Of a stretch of DNA of 34,354 bases, positions 1,125 to 27,286 are shown one piece after another. Position numbers and translations under genes: made by a program. The notes beneath the pieces were generated by a model. That model was not told the DNA's origin. It did not search any database and saw only the letters and a program-made list of their open reading frames with translations. The DNA comes from Gemmatimonadota bacterium (GTDB lineage Bacteria > Gemmatimonadota > Gemmatimonadetes > Gemmatimonadales > GWC2-71-9): positions 1-34,354 of the forward strand of contig QHTP01000035.1 of assembly GCA_003220855.1 (NCBI GenBank), written 5' to 3'. Positions within the stretch are counted from its first letter, which is position 1. The number at the start of each line of letters is the position of its first letter.

Positions 1125-2169
1125 CGTCGTCCTCGGGATCGAGACCTCGTGCGACGAGACCTCGGCCGCCGTGCTGGTGGGCGAGGGCCGCCGTCCCGAG
1201 CTCGCCGGGCTCGTGATCTTGTCCCAGGACGTGCACCAGGTGTTCGGGGGCGTGGTGCCGGAGCTCGCGAGCCGGGCGCATTTGGCGGCGCTGCCGGCGG
1301 TGGTCGACCGCGCGCTCGCGGAGGCCGGTCTCAGCTGGAGCGCCGTGGACGCCGTCGCGGTGACCCAGGGCCCGGGACTCGTCGGCGCGCTCCTGGTCGG
1401 GGTGGCCTACGCCAAGGCGCTGGCCTATGCCGGCGACCGCGAGCTGATCGGCGTTCATCATATGGAGGGGCATCTCTTCGCCCCGCTCGTAGAGGACCCG
1501 GACCTGGCACCGCCGTTCGTCGCGCTGCTCGTGTCGGGAGGTCACACGCTGCTGCTCGACGTTCCCGCCTGGGGGCGCTACCGCCTGCTGGGCGCGACCC
1601 GCGACGACGCGGCCGGCGAGGCGTTCGACAAGGTCGCGACGCTTCTGGGCCTGGGGTATCCGGGCGGCCCGGCGATCGAGCGGCTCGCGGCCCAGGGAGA
1701 TCCGAGCCGCTTCTCGTTCCCGCGTCCGATGCGGGACGAGGGCTTCGAGTTCTCCTTCTCCGGTCTCAAGACCGCGGTGCTGCGAGCCGTGCGCTCGAGC
1801 GACGATCTCGACCGCGACCGGCCGCATCTGGCGCGCGCGTTCCAGGACGCCGTGCTCGACGTGCTGGTCACCAAACTCGAGCGAGCGGTCCGCGCCACGG
1901 GCCACCGGACCGCCGTGCTGGGTGGCGGCGTGGCGTGCAGCCGGGCGCTCGCCGGGCTCGCCGCCCGGCGCCTCTCCGACGGAGGACTCGCCCGCGTCGC
2001 CGTCGCGAGCCCGCGCTTGAACGCCGACAACGCCGCCATGATCGCCCGTGCCGGGTGGTACCGTCTCGGCCTGGGCGAGCGCAGTGACTGGACGCTGGAT
2101 GCCCGGGCGGACCTGCCGCTGCCCGGCCTGGAGCCGGTACCCACCACACTCGACGCGGCCCGCCCATGA
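1117..2169 (+). CDS. tsaD: tRNA N6-adenosine threonylcarbamoyltransferase TsaD
   Basis: TsaD transfers the threonylcarbamoyl group from threonylcarbamoyl-AMP to A37 of ANN-decoding tRNAs, working with TsaB and TsaE in the cytoplasm. The 350-residue product has the usual length and the ASKHA/Kae1 features. It starts LGIETSCDETS, carries the metal-binding pair H115 and H119 in HHMEGH, a glycine-rich VSGGHT loop, FSFSGLKTAV, and NADNAAMIA with metal ligand D304. The start is GTG at 1117, inside the 3' end of the cdaR-like gene, which suggests translational coupling. Its stop overlaps the lgt start by 4 bases. TsaB and TsaE are not in the window. Confidence 0.97.
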   Translation: MADVVLGIETSCDETSAAVLVGEGRRPELAGLVILSQDVHQVFGGVVPELASRAHLAALPAVVDRALAEAGLSWSAVDAVAVTQGPGLVGALLVGVAYAKALAYAGDRELIGVHHMEGHLFAPLVEDPDLAPPFVALLVSGGHTLLLDVPAWGRYRLLGATRDDAAGEAFDKVATLLGLGYPGGPAIERLAAQGDPSRFSFPRPMRDEGFEFSFSGLKTAVLRAVRSSDDLDRDRPHLARAFQDAVLDVLVTKLERAVRATGHRTAVLGGGVACSRALAGLAARRLSDGGLARVAVASPRLNADNAAMIARAGWYRLGLGERSDWTLDARADLPLPGLEPVPTTLDAARP

Positions 2170-3053
2170 CGATTTATCCCTTCGGGTTCACGATCCCGCT
2201 GCCCCGGATCGACATCCTGTTCATCCATCTGGGTCCCCTGCAGGTCACGGGATACGGGCTGATGATGATGGTCGCCTTCCTCATGGCGGGGTGGGCGATC
2301 CAGGTCGATCTGCGGCGCCGAGGGATGGCCGAGGAGTACGCAGCCGACATCGTGTTCGCCGCCGTGCTCGGCGGCATCGTGGGGGCCAAGATCTGGTATG
2401 TGCTGCTGACGGGCGAATGGGAAGCGCTGTTGCGGCGCGGCGGGTTCGTTTGGTACGGGGGCTTTCTCGGGGGCGTGGCGGCCGTGCTCGCAACCGGGTG
2501 GTGGAAGCGCGTGCCCGCCCGCTGGACGATGGAGCTCACCGCCGCCCCTCTCGCCCTCGGCTACGCGCTGGGACGCGTCGGGTGCTTCCTGGTCAACGAC
2601 GACTACGGCATCCCGTCGACCCTGCCCTGGGCGATGAAGTTCCCGCGCGGACTTCCACCCACCACGGTGGCCGAGCTGAGCAACATGCACGTGCGCTTCC
2701 CGCCCGGCACCGACCCCATGCAGGTCGTGGCGGTGCACCCGACGCAGATCTACGAGACGGCGCTGATGCTGTCGGCGTTCGCGTTGTTGTGGCGGCTGCG
2801 GGACCACCGGCACGGCACGGGTTGGCGGTTCGGCGTCTATCTCGTGCTGGCCGGGACGGAGCGCTTCCTGGTCGAGATCGTGCGCGCGAAGGACGATCGA
2901 CTGCTGGGACCGTTCACCCTAGCGCAGGTGACCAGCGTGCTGTTGGTGCTCGCGGGTGTATGGCTGATGCAGCGACTGCGCGCCCCCGAGCCCGCGACCG
3001 TGGCCGTGCCCGCCGCACTCAAGCCGCAACCCCAGGCGCAGCCGACACGGTAG
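2166..3053 (+). CDS. lgt: Prolipoprotein diacylglyceryl transferase Lgt
   Basis: Lgt moves a diacylglyceryl group from phosphatidylglycerol to the lipobox cysteine of prolipoproteins in the inner membrane. The 295-residue protein has multiple hydrophobic segments and the Lgt signature GRVGCFLVNDDYG (residues 136-148), matching the family GRxGxFxN pattern. It also has HPTQIYE near 193 and a C-terminal ERFLVEIVRAKDDR block. The start ATG overlaps the tsaD stop in an ATGA arrangement. The C-terminal tail is Ala/Pro/Gln-rich. The window itself contains at least one probable client, the Met-rich lipoprotein at its right edge. It converges with the FTR1 fusion gene with only 7 bases between stops and no visible terminator hairpin. 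Confidence 0.96.
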   Translation: MTIYPFGFTIPLPRIDILFIHLGPLQVTGYGLMMMVAFLMAGWAIQVDLRRRGMAEEYAADIVFAAVLGGIVGAKIWYVLLTGEWEALLRRGGFVWYGGFLGGVAAVLATGWWKRVPARWTMELTAAPLALGYALGRVGCFLVNDDYGIPSTLPWAMKFPRGLPPTTVAELSNMHVRFPPGTDPMQVVAVHPTQIYETALMLSAFALLWRLRDHRHGTGWRFGVYLVLAGTERFLVEIVRAKDDRLLGPFTLAQVTSVLLVLAGVWLMQRLRAPEPATVAVPAALKPQPQAQPTR

Positions 3054-3060
3054 ACGCGGG

Positions 3061-5157
3061 CTACGGGAACGACGGCCGGCGGCGGTCCGCCCCCGTGCCG
3101 CCGAAACGGTTCCGCTGCAGCCACACCACGGCCACGAGCAGCAGGACGAGGAGCAGCAGCTGGAGTGCCAGCGATTGCACGGTGGGATAGATACCCAGGA
3201 CGGGGATGCGGGGCGCCCACCGAACCACGCTCACCCGCACCAGTCCCGACTCCTGCAGGTCCGCGATCCCCTTCCCCGCGAACACGAACGCCATGTAGTA
3301 GAGCATCGCGCTCGTCACCGCGAAGAAGGGCTTGAGCGGGACCTTCATCCCGAAGCGGCTGACTGCCACGTAGACGATCACCAACGCCAACCCAGCCGCC
3401 GCGATCCCTGCCATGACTCCCGCCACTCCCGCCGCGCTGGTCGATCCCGCCGAGGAGAGCAGCGCCTTGTAGAACAGGATGGTCTCGAAGCCCTCGCGAT
3501 AGACCGCGAGGAAGGCCACCGACGAGAGCGCGAACCCGGAGCCGGTCGACAGCGCGTCCTCCATCCGGCCCTGGACGAAGGCGTTCCACTTGGCCACCTC
3601 GATCTTGGAGAGCAGCCAATAGCTGACGTAGAACAGCACGGCGGTGGCGAGGAGCATGGTCCCGCCCTCGAGCGCTTCCCGCTGGCCCGGCGTGATCTCG
3701 AACAGCAGCTCGATCACCACCGCGGTGGCGGCGCTCGCGGCGACTGCGGCCCAGGCCCCTCGCGCCACGTGACGCCGGCGCTCGACGGCGCCGGCTTTCG
3801 AGAGAAACGCCATCAGCGCCGCCACGATCAGGATCGCCTCGAACCCTTCCCGCAGCAGCAGCACGAACGACTGCACGAACAGGCTGGCGCCCGAACTCCG
3901 GTCGGCGACCAGCCGCTCGGCGCGCTCCAGATCGGCGAGCAGCCGGGCGTGGATCGCACCGAGCTCGTCCGGGCCGGCGCCCGCCGCCGTCCGCGCGCGC
4001 AGCAGGGTGAACGCCTGCTCGAGCTCGCTCGCCAGGCCGGAGTTCCTCAGCCGCACGTCCGTCTCCACCTGTTCGAACGTGAGGTAGGCGTCAAACGCGA
4101 TCTTGTCGGACCGGAGTGCCATTGCCGAGTCGAGCTGGCGCCGCACCACGGAGAACGTGGCGGCCGCCGGGGACGCCTCGTACTTCTGCCGCTCGGCCGT
4201 GGGCAGCACCCGCAGGAACGCCACGATCTTGGCGGCGTCCCCGGGGTCCAACGTACGCGCAAACCCGGGCATCGCCGTCCCCGGACGGCCCCGCAGAATG
4301 AGCTCCTCGAGCTCGCGGTCGGTGAACCGGCCTTGGACGGCGAGGTCCCGCAGCGCGGGCGGCCGGACCGAGAGCGTGGCGGCAAGCGGACCGTCGCCGC
4401 CGCCGGTGGCGCCGTGGCACGAAGCGCACGTCGTCGCGTACCGCCCCTCGCCCTCGCGGACGAGCCCCTCGTCGGCGCGCAGTGTGGCCACGTACGTGGC
4501 TACGGCCCAGCGGTCCTCGGGGGACAGCGTCTCCTCGAACTGTGGCATCGCCGTGCCGGCCACGCCGAGCGTGAGCTTGCGATACACGTCCAGCGGGGAG
4601 ACGGCGCTCATCGCTTGGCGATCGGCGAGGCTCGCGGGCGGGGGGCCCTGCAACTGCTTCGCTTTCGGTCCGTCACCGCGCCCGGTCGCACCGTGGCACT
4701 GCGCGCACTGCTCCTGGTAGACGGCCGCACCGCGCACCAGCGACGGCGGGCGCGAAGGGAAGGTTTCGAGCGCATCTCCAACAGCGGTCGCGATGTGCTG
4801 CACGAGCAGTCCGGCCCGCGCCGCGACCGAGTCCGGGGGTGCGGCCCGGTCGAGCAGTGCGTGCAGGGCCACGAGGTCGGAGTCGGCGGTCGCCCGCACC
4901 GCCCGAGGGAGCGAGCCGACGTCGAGCCGGGCCTGGTCGAGAAACTGCTTGGCCTCCGAGACTTCCTCGGGATTCGTCACCCGGCCCCCGCGGGGCGCAA
5001 CCCCGATGGCGTACTCCTTGGCGGCGAGCGAGGCGGCAGCCACGATGCGTCGGGCCACGGCCAGCGAGTCCATCGCCTGCGCCCCTGCCGGCGCCGTGAT
5101 GCACGTGCCCAACAGCAAGCCGACCAGTGACTTACAGTAGATGGGAGCGGTTCTCAA
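3061..5157 (-). CDS. Di-haem cytochrome c / FTR1-family iron permease fusion
   Basis: I place the start at TTG 5157, giving 698 residues with a signal peptide ending near AGAQA; TTG 5172 is an alternative. The 810-residue track ORF runs back through acpS and is too long. Two cytochrome c domains follow, with haem motifs CAQCH (151-155) and CASCH (244-248), each with a downstream Met-containing AMPxF segment as a possible axial ligand. After a helical linker comes an FTR1 membrane domain with the two characteristic REGFE motifs at 436-440 and 554-558 and several hydrophobic segments. FTR1/EfeU permeases carry oxidised iron across the inner membrane, coupled to ferrous oxidation. Here the fused cytochrome domains probably take those electrons on the periplasmic side. 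A promoter lies between acpS and this gene. No EfeO or EfeB is seen. Confidence 0.9.
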   Translation of the reverse strand: MRTAPIYCKSLVGLLLGTCITAPAGAQAMDSLAVARRIVAAASLAAKEYAIGVAPRGGRVTNPEEVSEAKQFLDQARLDVGSLPRAVRATADSDLVALHALLDRAAPPDSVAARAGLLVQHIATAVGDALETFPSRPPSLVRGAAVYQEQCAQCHGATGRGDGPKAKQLQGPPPASLADRQAMSAVSPLDVYRKLTLGVAGTAMPQFEETLSPEDRWAVATYVATLRADEGLVREGEGRYATTCASCHGATGGGDGPLAATLSVRPPALRDLAVQGRFTDRELEELILRGRPGTAMPGFARTLDPGDAAKIVAFLRVLPTAERQKYEASPAAATFSVVRRQLDSAMALRSDKIAFDAYLTFEQVETDVRLRNSGLASELEQAFTLLRARTAAGAGPDELGAIHARLLADLERAERLVADRSSGASLFVQSFVLLLREGFEAILIVAALMAFLSKAGAVERRRHVARGAWAAVAASAATAVVIELLFEITPGQREALEGGTMLLATAVLFYVSYWLLSKIEVAKWNAFVQGRMEDALSTGSGFALSSVAFLAVYREGFETILFYKALLSSAGSTSAAGVAGVMAGIAAAGLALVIVYVAVSRFGMKVPLKPFFAVTSAMLYYMAFVFAGKGIADLQESGLVRVSVVRWAPRIPVLGIYPTVQSLALQLLLLVLLLVAVVWLQRNRFGGTGADRRRPSFP

Positions 5158-25017: not shown

Positions 25018-26114
25018 CGATCCGCGTCGCCACCGCGGAGCAGCGCCACACCTCGTACGACATTCTGATCGACCGCGGACTGCTCGCGGATCTGCCCGCC
25101 CTGGTGAAAGCCGCCTGCCCAGCCGCGCGCTATGCCGTGATCACCGACTCGCACGTCGCGACGCTGTGCGGGGCGAAGATCGTTACACGACTCCACGACG
25201 CCACGTTGCAGGCCCAACTCTTCGAGTTCCCGGCGGGCGAGTGGAACAAGACGCGAGAAACGTGGGCGATGCTCTCCGACAAGATGCTCGTGGCGCAGTT
25301 CGGCCGCGACAGCGCCGTGCTGGCGCTCGGCGGAGGCGTCGTGGGCGACGTCGCGGGGTTCGTCGCGGCCACGTACCTGCGGGGCGTCCCGTACATCCAG
25401 GTACCCACCACGCTGCTCGCGATGATCGACTCGTCGATCGGCGGCAAGACGGGTGTCGACGTCCCGGCCGGCAAGAACCTGCTGGGCGCCTTTCACCAAC
25501 CTCGTCTCGTCGTCGCCGACCTGGACCTGCTCGGCACCCTGCCGCCGCCGCAGCTCGCCGCGGGGATCGCCGAAGCGGTCAAGCACGGGGTGATCGCCGA
25601 CGCCGACTACTTCGCATTCCTGGAGCGCGAGCACCACGCCGTCACGACCAAGCAGCCCGCCGCACTCGAGCAACTGGTGCGGCGCTCCGTGGAGATCAAG
25701 GCGGGCGTCGTCGCTGCGGACGAGCGTGAGACCGGCCGTCGCGCGATCCTCAACTTCGGGCACACGGTGGCGCACGCGGTCGAGGCGACGGCGCAGTTCG
25801 CCGTGCTGCACGGCGAGGCCGTCGCGATCGGCATGACGTACGAAGCGCGGCTCGCAGAAGTGCTGGGGATCGCCGAACCGGGAACCGCCAATCGCATCGC
25901 GCGGCTGCTCGAGCGCTGCGGTCTCCCGCTCGAGCTCCCCGAGAGCGCCACGGCGGACCGCCTGCTCGCGACGATGCAGCTCGACAAAAAGGCGCGCGCC
26001 GGAACGGTGCGGTTCGCGCTGCCGGAGGCGGTTGGACGCATGCACGCCGACGGCAGTAGCTGGACGGTGGCGGCCCCCGAGCGCGCGGTACGGGACGTGC
26101 TCGCGGGGCGGTAG
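25014..26114 (+). CDS. aroB: 3-Dehydroquinate synthase AroB
   Basis: AroB converts DAHP to 3-dehydroquinate in the second step of the shikimate pathway, using NAD and a divalent metal. From GTG 25014 the product is 366 residues, the normal length. It shows the NAD-binding GGGVVGDVAGFVAATYLRGV, the substrate loop DSSIGGKTGVDVPAGKNLLGAFHQP, and metal ligands in AEAVKHG, LNFGHTVAHAVE and LHGEAVAIGM. GTG 25011, one codon earlier, is an alternative start; the 416-residue track ORF begins inside the adenosyltransferase gene. The 4-base overlap indicates translational coupling to that gene. A weak bulged hairpin follows the stop. Confidence 0.97.
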   Translation: MTIRVATAEQRHTSYDILIDRGLLADLPALVKAACPAARYAVITDSHVATLCGAKIVTRLHDATLQAQLFEFPAGEWNKTRETWAMLSDKMLVAQFGRDSAVLALGGGVVGDVAGFVAATYLRGVPYIQVPTTLLAMIDSSIGGKTGVDVPAGKNLLGAFHQPRLVVADLDLLGTLPPPQLAAGIAEAVKHGVIADADYFAFLEREHHAVTTKQPAALEQLVRRSVEIKAGVVAADERETGRRAILNFGHTVAHAVEATAQFAVLHGEAVAIGMTYEARLAEVLGIAEPGTANRIARLLERCGLPLELPESATADRLLATMQLDKKARAGTVRFALPEAVGRMHADGSSWTVAAPERAVRDVLAGR

Positions 26115-26115
26115 T

Positions 26116-26142
26116 CGCAGCTTGGTACTAATTGCAAGTGCG
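26116..26142 (+). terminator. Weak bulged hairpin after aroB
   Basis: CGCAGCTTG (26116-26124) can pair with CAAGTGCG (26135-26142) with one bulged G, giving an 8-bp stem and a 10-base loop. No T-run follows, so it is at best a weak terminator. Confidence 0.25.
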
Positions 26143-26149
26143 TCAACAA

Positions 26150-26356
26150 CTTCCCACATGATTCTGCACCTCTCCACATGCCGCGCAACTCGCAGTCAAC
26201 GCGGCATCAACATCCATTTCTCCACACGCGATGTGGATAGTGGACAAACGCGGGAGTGGTGCTACGCACTAATAATTTGTGATGTGGAAAAATGGATAGA
26301 TTTGCACCATTCGCCGGCGATTCCTATATTGGGCGCCGGTCGTAGAGTTTTCCACT
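26150..26356. promoter_or_regulatory. Cluster of DnaA-box-like TCCACA/TGTGGA words upstream of the sigma factor
   Basis: In the 278-bp spacer between aroB and the sigma-factor gene I find TTCTCCACA (26218-26226), TGTGGATAG (26232-26240) and TGTGGAAAA (26283-26291). Each differs by one base from the DnaA box TTATCCACA or its complement. Weaker versions lie at 26150-26158, 26170-26178 and 26348-26356. The second and third strongest words flank the AT-rich stretch ACTAATAATTTGTGATG. TCCACA-CGCGA-TGTGGA is also a perfect short inverted repeat. Whether DnaA or another regulator binds is unknown. Confidence 0.5.
26302..26330 (+). promoter_or_regulatory. Promoter of the primary-type sigma factor gene
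   Basis: TTGCAC (26302-26307) and TATATT (26325-26330) are separated by exactly 17 bases and match 4 of 6 and 5 of 6 consensus bases. The start would fall near 26337, leaving a leader of about 56 bases with GGAG eight bases before the ATG. Confidence 0.65.
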
Positions 26357-26392
26357 GGCTCAACATACGTCTCCACCGTCGGAGCCCTAGCT

Positions 26393-27286
26393 ATGGAGCG
26401 GTCGAACGGAGGCAAGGCCAAGGCGTTCTTTCGAGCCAATCCTTCCGGCGCCTTCGACCAGTACCTGCAGGACATTCAGAAGCTCCCCCTCATCAAAGAT
26501 CCAGCTGAAGAACGCAGACTCGCGCGGCGCGTGCAACGGGGCGACGAAAAGGCCGCCGAGCGGCTCGTCACCGCCAACCTCCGCTTCGTCATCTCCTACG
26601 TCAAGAAATACCAGGGGCACGGGCTGGACCTGTCCGAGCTGGTAGCGATCGGGAACGAGGGGCTCCTCAAGGCGGTCAAGAAGTTCGATCCGGATCAGGG
26701 CGTGAAGTTCATCTCGTACGCGGTGTGGTGGGTGCGACAGGCCGTGTTGAAAGCCCTGGCCGAGCAGACCCGCAGCGTGCGGATCCCGTTGAATCAGAAC
26801 TCGCAGCTGATCCGCATGAGCCGCACCGAGACCTATCTGTCGCAGGAGCTCGGGCGCGAGCCGACCGACGACGAGATCGCGATGGCGCTCCAGGACACCG
26901 TCGAGAACGTCCGCACCGCGCGTCGCATGACGGCGGCGGAGCTGTCGCTCGACGCTCCGGTGGACCGGAGCGACAAGGACGCGGCCACGCTGGGCGAGCG
27001 GTTCGCCGGCCAGGAAGGCGGCGAAATCGAGGAGAAGACCGACGGCAAGCTGATGCGTGAGTTCATCGACCGCATCTTCCAGAAGTATCTCACCCCCCGC
27101 GAGCGCAAGATTCTCTATCTCTATTACGGCCTCGAAGAAGGTAGTGAGGCCATGACGCTGGAGAAAATCGGAGCGCTGATGGGCGTGACGCGAGAACGCA
27201 TCAGGCAGATACGCGAACGGGCGTTCGAGAAGCTGCGGGAGTCGCCCGATGGACGGGCGCTCAAGGGGTTCTGGCGAGCCGCTTAG
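26393..27286 (+). CDS. rpoD: Primary-type sigma-70 factor (RpoD/SigA), short form
   Basis: The 297-residue protein has sigma regions 1.2 (FDQYLQDIQKLPLI, about 21-34), 2 (LVTANLRFVISYVKKYQGHGLDLSELV through YAVWWVRQAVLKALAEQ), 3, and 4 (from about 233, LTPRERKILYLYYGLE, then the helix-turn-helix TLEKIGALMGVTRERIRQIRERAFEKLR). Region 1.1 and the non-conserved insert are missing, as in the short housekeeping sigma factors of Bacteroidota and relatives. It directs RNA polymerase to -35/-10 promoters. The segment between regions 3 and 4 is acidic (GQEGGEIEEKTDGK). GGAG sits 8 bases before the ATG. The gene stands alone with its own promoter and is followed by a strong hairpin. Whether it is the only primary sigma factor cannot be seen here. 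Confidence 0.93.
   Translation: MERSNGGKAKAFFRANPSGAFDQYLQDIQKLPLIKDPAEERRLARRVQRGDEKAAERLVTANLRFVISYVKKYQGHGLDLSELVAIGNEGLLKAVKKFDPDQGVKFISYAVWWVRQAVLKALAEQTRSVRIPLNQNSQLIRMSRTETYLSQELGREPTDDEIAMALQDTVENVRTARRMTAAELSLDAPVDRSDKDAATLGERFAGQEGGEIEEKTDGKLMREFIDRIFQKYLTPRERKILYLYYGLEEGSEAMTLEKIGALMGVTRERIRQIRERAFEKLRESPDGRALKGFWRAA

Follow-up and report, generated by a model that had tools for sequence, protein, structure and literature searches.

The window analysed here, 34,354 nucleotides in length, is contig C192 of a draft genome of 2.96 Mb in 365 contigs. Within it, aroB ends at position 26114 and is followed by a spacer of 278 bp (26115–26392), which adjoins on its other side a gene of the sigma-70 family (26393–27286, forward strand; 297 aa, with regions 1.2, 2, 3, and 4). 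The GC content of the spacer is 52%, versus mostly 65–75% across the window, and the spacer contains the whole array of sites described below, for which the sigma gene is the proposed target. The genome has three sigma-70 paralogues, and the one in the window is the most conserved of them (91% between genomes G000 and G027, versus 88% and 80% for the others). The earlier note had named it rpoD. We rejected its identification as the housekeeping factor RpoD/SigA because the C1 paralogue is clearly closer to that protein, scoring 301 bits against NF004208 and 265 bits against the SigA chain 7l7b, where the protein in the window scores 208 and 195 bits, respectively. The gene is thus better described as a sigma-70 paralogue. 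In G000 and G027, the 330 bp preceding each of the other two paralogues contain no such box.

A series of words resembling the DnaA box runs through the spacer. Two weak boxes on the forward strand, CTTCCCACA (26150–26158) and CTCTCCACA (26170–26178), recur at a similar position in close relatives only. Next come TTCTCCACA (26218–26226, forward strand), found in the genus and the nearest genera, and its inverted partner CTATCCACA (26232–26240, reverse strand; TGTGGATAG on the forward strand), whose final bases overlap the element that we call site A. The word AGTGGACAA occupies 26239–26247, and TGTGGAAAA (26283–26291; TTTTCCACA on the reverse strand) is a DnaA-type box within what we call site B. 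The last, the box-like TTTTCCACT (26348–26356, forward strand), lies 3′ of the predicted −10 element and is common to the closest relatives only. As the earlier note had claimed, the best of these words are one mismatch from the strict box TTATCCACA; with TTWTNCACA as the reference, there is one perfect word and another three that deviate at a single position. Such matches (one mismatch or fewer) number four in the spacer, versus a mean of 0.46 expected from dinucleotide shuffles of the spacer (n = 3000), and only three of the shuffles reach four. TGTGG/CCACA words number five versus 0.81 expected (2 of 3000 shuffles). The total of six TTWTNCACA-type matches in the whole window is not unusual (shuffle mean 4.2); what is unusual is the clustering, as four of the six are packed into 139 bp. 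The words therefore lie where they had been placed, in a comparatively AT-rich spacer, and are clustered beyond shuffled expectation.

Two of these elements stand in a fixed relation to a promoter. A consensus scan gives a promoter-like match at 26302–26330 on the forward strand, with a predicted −35 element TTGCAC (26302–26307), 17 bp, and a −10 element TATATT (26325–26330), the −35/−10 spacing being kept in relatives. Site B, TTTGTGATGTGGAAAA (26276–26291, forward strand; also written TTWGTGATGTKGANAA), ends 10 bp 5′ of the −35 element and joins an invariant TTTGTGA half to the box TGTGGAAAA, whose reverse-strand form TTTTCCACA at 26283–26291 is the 9-mer near the sigma promoter that matches TTDTCCACA (TTATNCACA). 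Site A, GTGGACAAA (26240–26248, forward strand; TTTGTCCAC on the reverse strand), is held at a conserved spacing from site B. Site B precedes the sigma gene, as TTWGTGATGTKGANA(A), in 63 relatives, and its box is TGTKGAHAA-like in most of them. The gap from the end of the 9-mer to the −35 element is 10 bp in 52 of these 63 anchored upstream regions, the −35/−10 spacing is 17 in 55 of the 63, and 39 of 40 site A matches lie 38–39 bp 5′ of the GTGATGT in site B. The core GTGATGT..GA was identical in 35 of 35 and then in 63 of 63 anchored sequences, where the invariance of the GTGATGT bases is conditional on the presence of the site because anchoring demands them, and where all conservation counts come from related species and hence are not independent. 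This core is more conserved than the −35 element (TTGAC or TTGCAC) and the −10 element (TATATT or TATTAT), and nothing else in the spacer is conserved to a similar degree beyond the nearest genera.

The bases that are kept do not coincide with a DnaA box alone. Conservation in site B covers TTWGTGATGTKGA, which reaches well past the 9-mer and is strictest at its TTWGTGATGT side. Within the box, one base varies on the strand of the site (A in 39, T in 16, and C in 8 sequences), and several genera of the window's family have altered last bases of the 9-mer (AAAG, ATTA) or TGTTGA. At site A (26240–26255 and relatives), an A that is invariant in 40 of 40 sequences lies 15 bp past the first G and is preceded by G or C; because of this A, the recognized sequence probably extends beyond GTGGACAAA.

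The same geometry bears on the suggestion that the cluster titrates DnaA. In this datA-like reading, the boxes would soak up DnaA and the sigma gene would not be regulated, which agrees with the presence of several boxes within 200 bp in the window's genus. Titration needs number, however, not geometry, and here the distances from site B to the −35 element and between the two sites vary by no more than a base or two. Moreover, just two to four boxes are present in most genera other than that of the window. We consider pure titration improbable because the arrangement is tied to a single promoter. With one site 10 bp 5′ of a suboptimal −35 element and a second about four turns upstream, both at fixed positions, the layout is that of a promoter operator and not of a sink.

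The comparison of upstream regions of the orthologous sigma gene covered three families, that of the window (f1) and two others (f2 and f3), and site B was found in f1 and f3; across f1, site A and its spacing from site B are kept as well. Allowing one mismatch, the 15-mer TTGTGATGTGGAWAA was found in 39 of 61 relatives, usually as a single copy and nearly always at the sigma gene, and its reversed control is almost absent from the same 61. Of 395 genomes of the phylum, 36, all from f1 or f3, have a single match to a stricter pattern that combines site B with the promoter; the reversed version had no match in the 395. Wherever checked, the matches adjoin this sigma gene: automatic detection placed its start next to the match in 27 of 29 loci, G031 and G013 were confirmed by coordinates, and five further matches (f3 and G339) lie, by coordinates, just 5′ of the sigma match. 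When a looser pattern was run over all bacterial genomes, the matches listed included many scattered through other phyla in addition to those in Gemmatimonadota; the former are as expected by chance given so much sequence. The conservation of the words in front of the sigma gene, which the earlier note had proposed to look for in relatives, thus extends to dozens of genera. Site B is absent at the sigma gene in f2, although the box is kept at dnaA there, and two genomes of genus g45 are without it. In genus g28 (G036, G076, G139, G159, G191, and G378), TTTGTGA is lost, the distance from TGTTGA to the −35 element is kept, and there are extra CCTAACG repeats. As a separate matter, the sigma mRNA leader of several f1 genera has a conserved TCGGTCATTTTGGCGGG-like stretch with a possible CCCGC...GCGGG stem, which was not seen in the window's genus.

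With conservation in many genera at fixed spacing, it is very improbable that the words arose by chance or that they mark an RNA element instead of a protein-binding site. For the latter, there is an overlap of the Rfam model Ms_IGR-5 with part of the spacer (15.5 bits, E 0.31, below the gathering score), but the predicted transcription start is 3′ of the sites, and no Rfam family scored above threshold in the spacer.

The link to DnaA comes from the dnaA promoter. In this assembly, dnaA is split, its N-terminal part lying on C254 beside rpmH and its C-terminal part on C203, followed by dnaN. In the divergent spacer between rpmH and dnaA, TTTTCCACA directly follows the TTGAC of the presumed dnaA −35 element, which it overlaps; read on the other strand, the same box lies 7 bp 5′ of the presumed rpmH −35 element. 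Among the genomes examined, TGTGGAAAA is present at the rpmH–dnaA promoter in nearly all of f1 and f3 and in most of f2, and the variants TTATCCACA and TTGTCCACA likewise occur there; the exact 9-mer is absent from this spacer in G043, G058, and G052 (f2) and in G027 (f1). At one base, the dnaA promoter box varies among three forms (TTTTCCACA, TTATCCACA, and TTGTCCACA), as does the box in site B. When 9-mers common to the two regions were sought genome by genome, TGTGGAAAA ranked first (11 of 15 genomes), followed by the overlapping ATGTGGAAA (6 of 15). The TTWGTGA half is absent from the dnaA promoter box.

The DnaA protein itself has a standard domain IV, as seen from a PF08299 match and an alignment to 1j1v, in which R399, R407, Q408, D433, H434, and T436 are kept. 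Most of the positions through which DnaA contacts its box in the E. coli structure are thereby retained. We considered whether a protein of 846 aa with two DnaA-ATPase domains might be a second DnaA but discarded the idea because the only domain IV (PF08299) of the genome lies elsewhere. We note a long open frame on G000:C281 of the same genome (about 1489–3459 of locus L001), with PF00308 twice and without DnaA domain IV, just behind MglB/MglA-like genes.

The shared words raise the question of whether the sigma spacer is itself an origin or a second origin away from dnaA, as the earlier note had allowed. Such a reading would draw on the grouping of its box words within a stretch of comparatively high AT content. 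The dnaA–dnaN spacers, however, have both TGTGG boxes and CTACTACTACTACTAG / CTACTACTACTAC runs resembling DnaA-trios, which belong to a described unwinding system (PMC8287927), and there is no DnaA-trio-like run in the sigma spacer. Relative to composition-matched control windows, both kinds of spacer are enriched in box words: TGTGG occurs at 17.3 per kb in dnaA–dnaN spacers, 11.9 in sigma spacers, and 2.1 in controls, and TGTTG at 8.0, 5.1, and 2.6, respectively. TGTKG is the main box word of the dnaA–dnaN spacers, where the TGTGG core is held in common with the sigma spacer and the full 9-mer is rare. The distance from the sigma gene to dnaA also varies, from 0.47 Mb in G027 to about 2.5 Mb in G029. 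GC skew is weak in both genomes; in G027, it turns at dnaA and not at the sigma gene. In G029, a single contig, the sampled skew shows no switch at dnaA (2.01 Mb) and turns positive near 4.9 Mb, a sign change not far from the sigma gene that would favor an origin there, but that may reflect rearrangement, assembly, or weak skew. From genes and motifs, the oriC of this lineage is the dnaA–dnaN spacer, far from the sigma gene, and we regard an origin at the sigma gene as hardly credible. The earlier note had named two findings that would count against its own proposal, a skew minimum elsewhere and words not conserved in related genomes. On the first, gene and motif evidence does place the origin elsewhere, with GC skew weak; the second clearly does not apply, as the words are conserved.

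These observations lead us to favor, modestly, a reading of the spacer as the promoter region of the sigma-70 paralogue with two conserved operators, for which DnaA is the candidate binder. The fixed pair of sites, one of which contains the 9-mer of the dnaA promoter, suggests that the cell probably ties production of the sigma factor to the replication initiator. For site B, we infer that DnaA is the likeliest binder because of the shared 9-mer, the enrichment of TGTGG in the dnaA–dnaN spacers, and the box-reading residues kept in domain IV. The comparison further suggests a DnaA-box consensus of TTDTCCACA for this Gemmatimonadota group. DnaA would recognize TGTGGAHAA (TTDTCCACA on the opposite strand) at both the sigma and dnaA promoters, possibly with opposite outcomes. 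At dnaA, where the box overlaps the −35 element and the −35/−10 spacer, it would be expected to repress. At the sigma gene, it would sit upstream of a suboptimal −35 element (TTGCAC), a position that suggests activation, perhaps through contact with RNA polymerase from a fixed position. DnaA at site A may cooperate with DnaA at site B, and the window's genus would add several weaker boxes to these two. Sigma output would then track the level of active DnaA and, with it, replication initiation and growth.

Several features do not fit DnaA alone. First, the TTWGTGA half of site B and the invariant A past site A lie outside the DnaA box, and both are missing from the box at the dnaA promoter. Second, DnaA of E. 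coli prefers tandem pairs 2–3 bp apart in vivo (PMC11317965), an arrangement not seen at the sigma gene, where neither the window nor the alignment of relatives has a second 9-mer 2–3 bp from the site B box. Third, f2 has the box at dnaA but not at the sigma gene, and several genera of f1 have the altered 9-mer ends or TGTTGA noted above. The first two make a second or different factor a serious rival. A different transcription factor might bind the full 16-bp site B together with site A, with the box between dnaA and rpmH reflecting co-regulation of growth genes. This would account for a conserved TTWGTGATGTKGA longer than the DnaA 9-mer and strictest toward TTWGTGATGT, for the further fixed positions in site A, and for the occurrence of the same word before rpmH as well as dnaA. 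On the other hand, TTTTCCACA, TTATCCACA, and TTGTCCACA are exactly of the DnaA type and stand in the dnaA promoter, TGTKG is the main box word at the dnaA–dnaN spacers, and genus g28 loses the TTTGTGA half yet keeps TGTTGA in place. On this balance, a different factor is a tentative possibility, one that we hold somewhat doubtful. A composite operator, in which DnaA sits next to a second factor on TTWGTGA and another DnaA site lies about four turns upstream, and through which transcription of a core-type sigma factor would depend directly on the initiator in two Gemmatimonadota families, appears rather unlikely. Of the regulatory suggestions in the earlier note, the DnaA-regulated promoter is supported by the conserved words, their rigid −35 spacing, and the 9-mer shared with the dnaA promoter, with DnaA as the probable binder; another TGTGGA-binding regulator is the less likely of the two, favored by the TTWGTGA half, which is foreign to DnaA boxes, against box variants that are exactly of the DnaA type.

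DnaA is known to regulate a small set of genes, and several known systems resemble the proposed one. Wang and Kaguni reportedly described DnaA control of rpoH in E. coli in 1989. This heat-shock sigma gene has DnaA boxes in its promoter region (PMC8203912; ChIP-seq study PMC11317965) and is repressed by DnaA (PMC8203912). The likeness is that of a sigma-factor gene with DnaA-type boxes in its promoter region; in contrast, the gene here encodes an RpoD/RpoS-like sigma-70 paralogue, belongs to another phylum, and has a rigid two-site geometry suggesting activation. The dnaA autoregulatory promoter of E. coli, B. subtilis, and others (PMC8203912) similarly has a DnaA-type 9-mer, but the sigma-gene box lies 5′ of the −35 element and carries the invariant TTWGTGA, whereas the dnaA box overlaps the −35. 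Clusters of the datA/DARS type share the presence of several boxes in a short intergenic stretch and differ from the sigma-gene boxes, which lie at a fixed promoter distance and are few in most genera. Finally, in the sigma–primase operon, a sigma gene is likewise coupled to functions in replication; the sigma gene studied here lies behind aroB, and its coupling would instead run through operator sites. In the open-access literature, we found no report that DnaA controls rpoD or sigA, and the search returned nothing on replication control in this Gemmatimonadota group. If a core-type sigma factor is indeed under DnaA, the initiator would set the transcription program of the whole cell. With its bases and spacing known and kept in dozens of genera, the element is directly open to binding and transcription assays.

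Beyond these promoters, TGTGGAAAA sites common to at least two genomes were seen near apt, a gene for DNA polymerase III delta′, a SIR2-family gene, and glnA. On thin evidence, they might fit a regulon under DnaA that comprises replication and nucleotide genes; weak support for such a wider set comes from a motif of paired boxes at apt, present in only 4 of 61 genomes.
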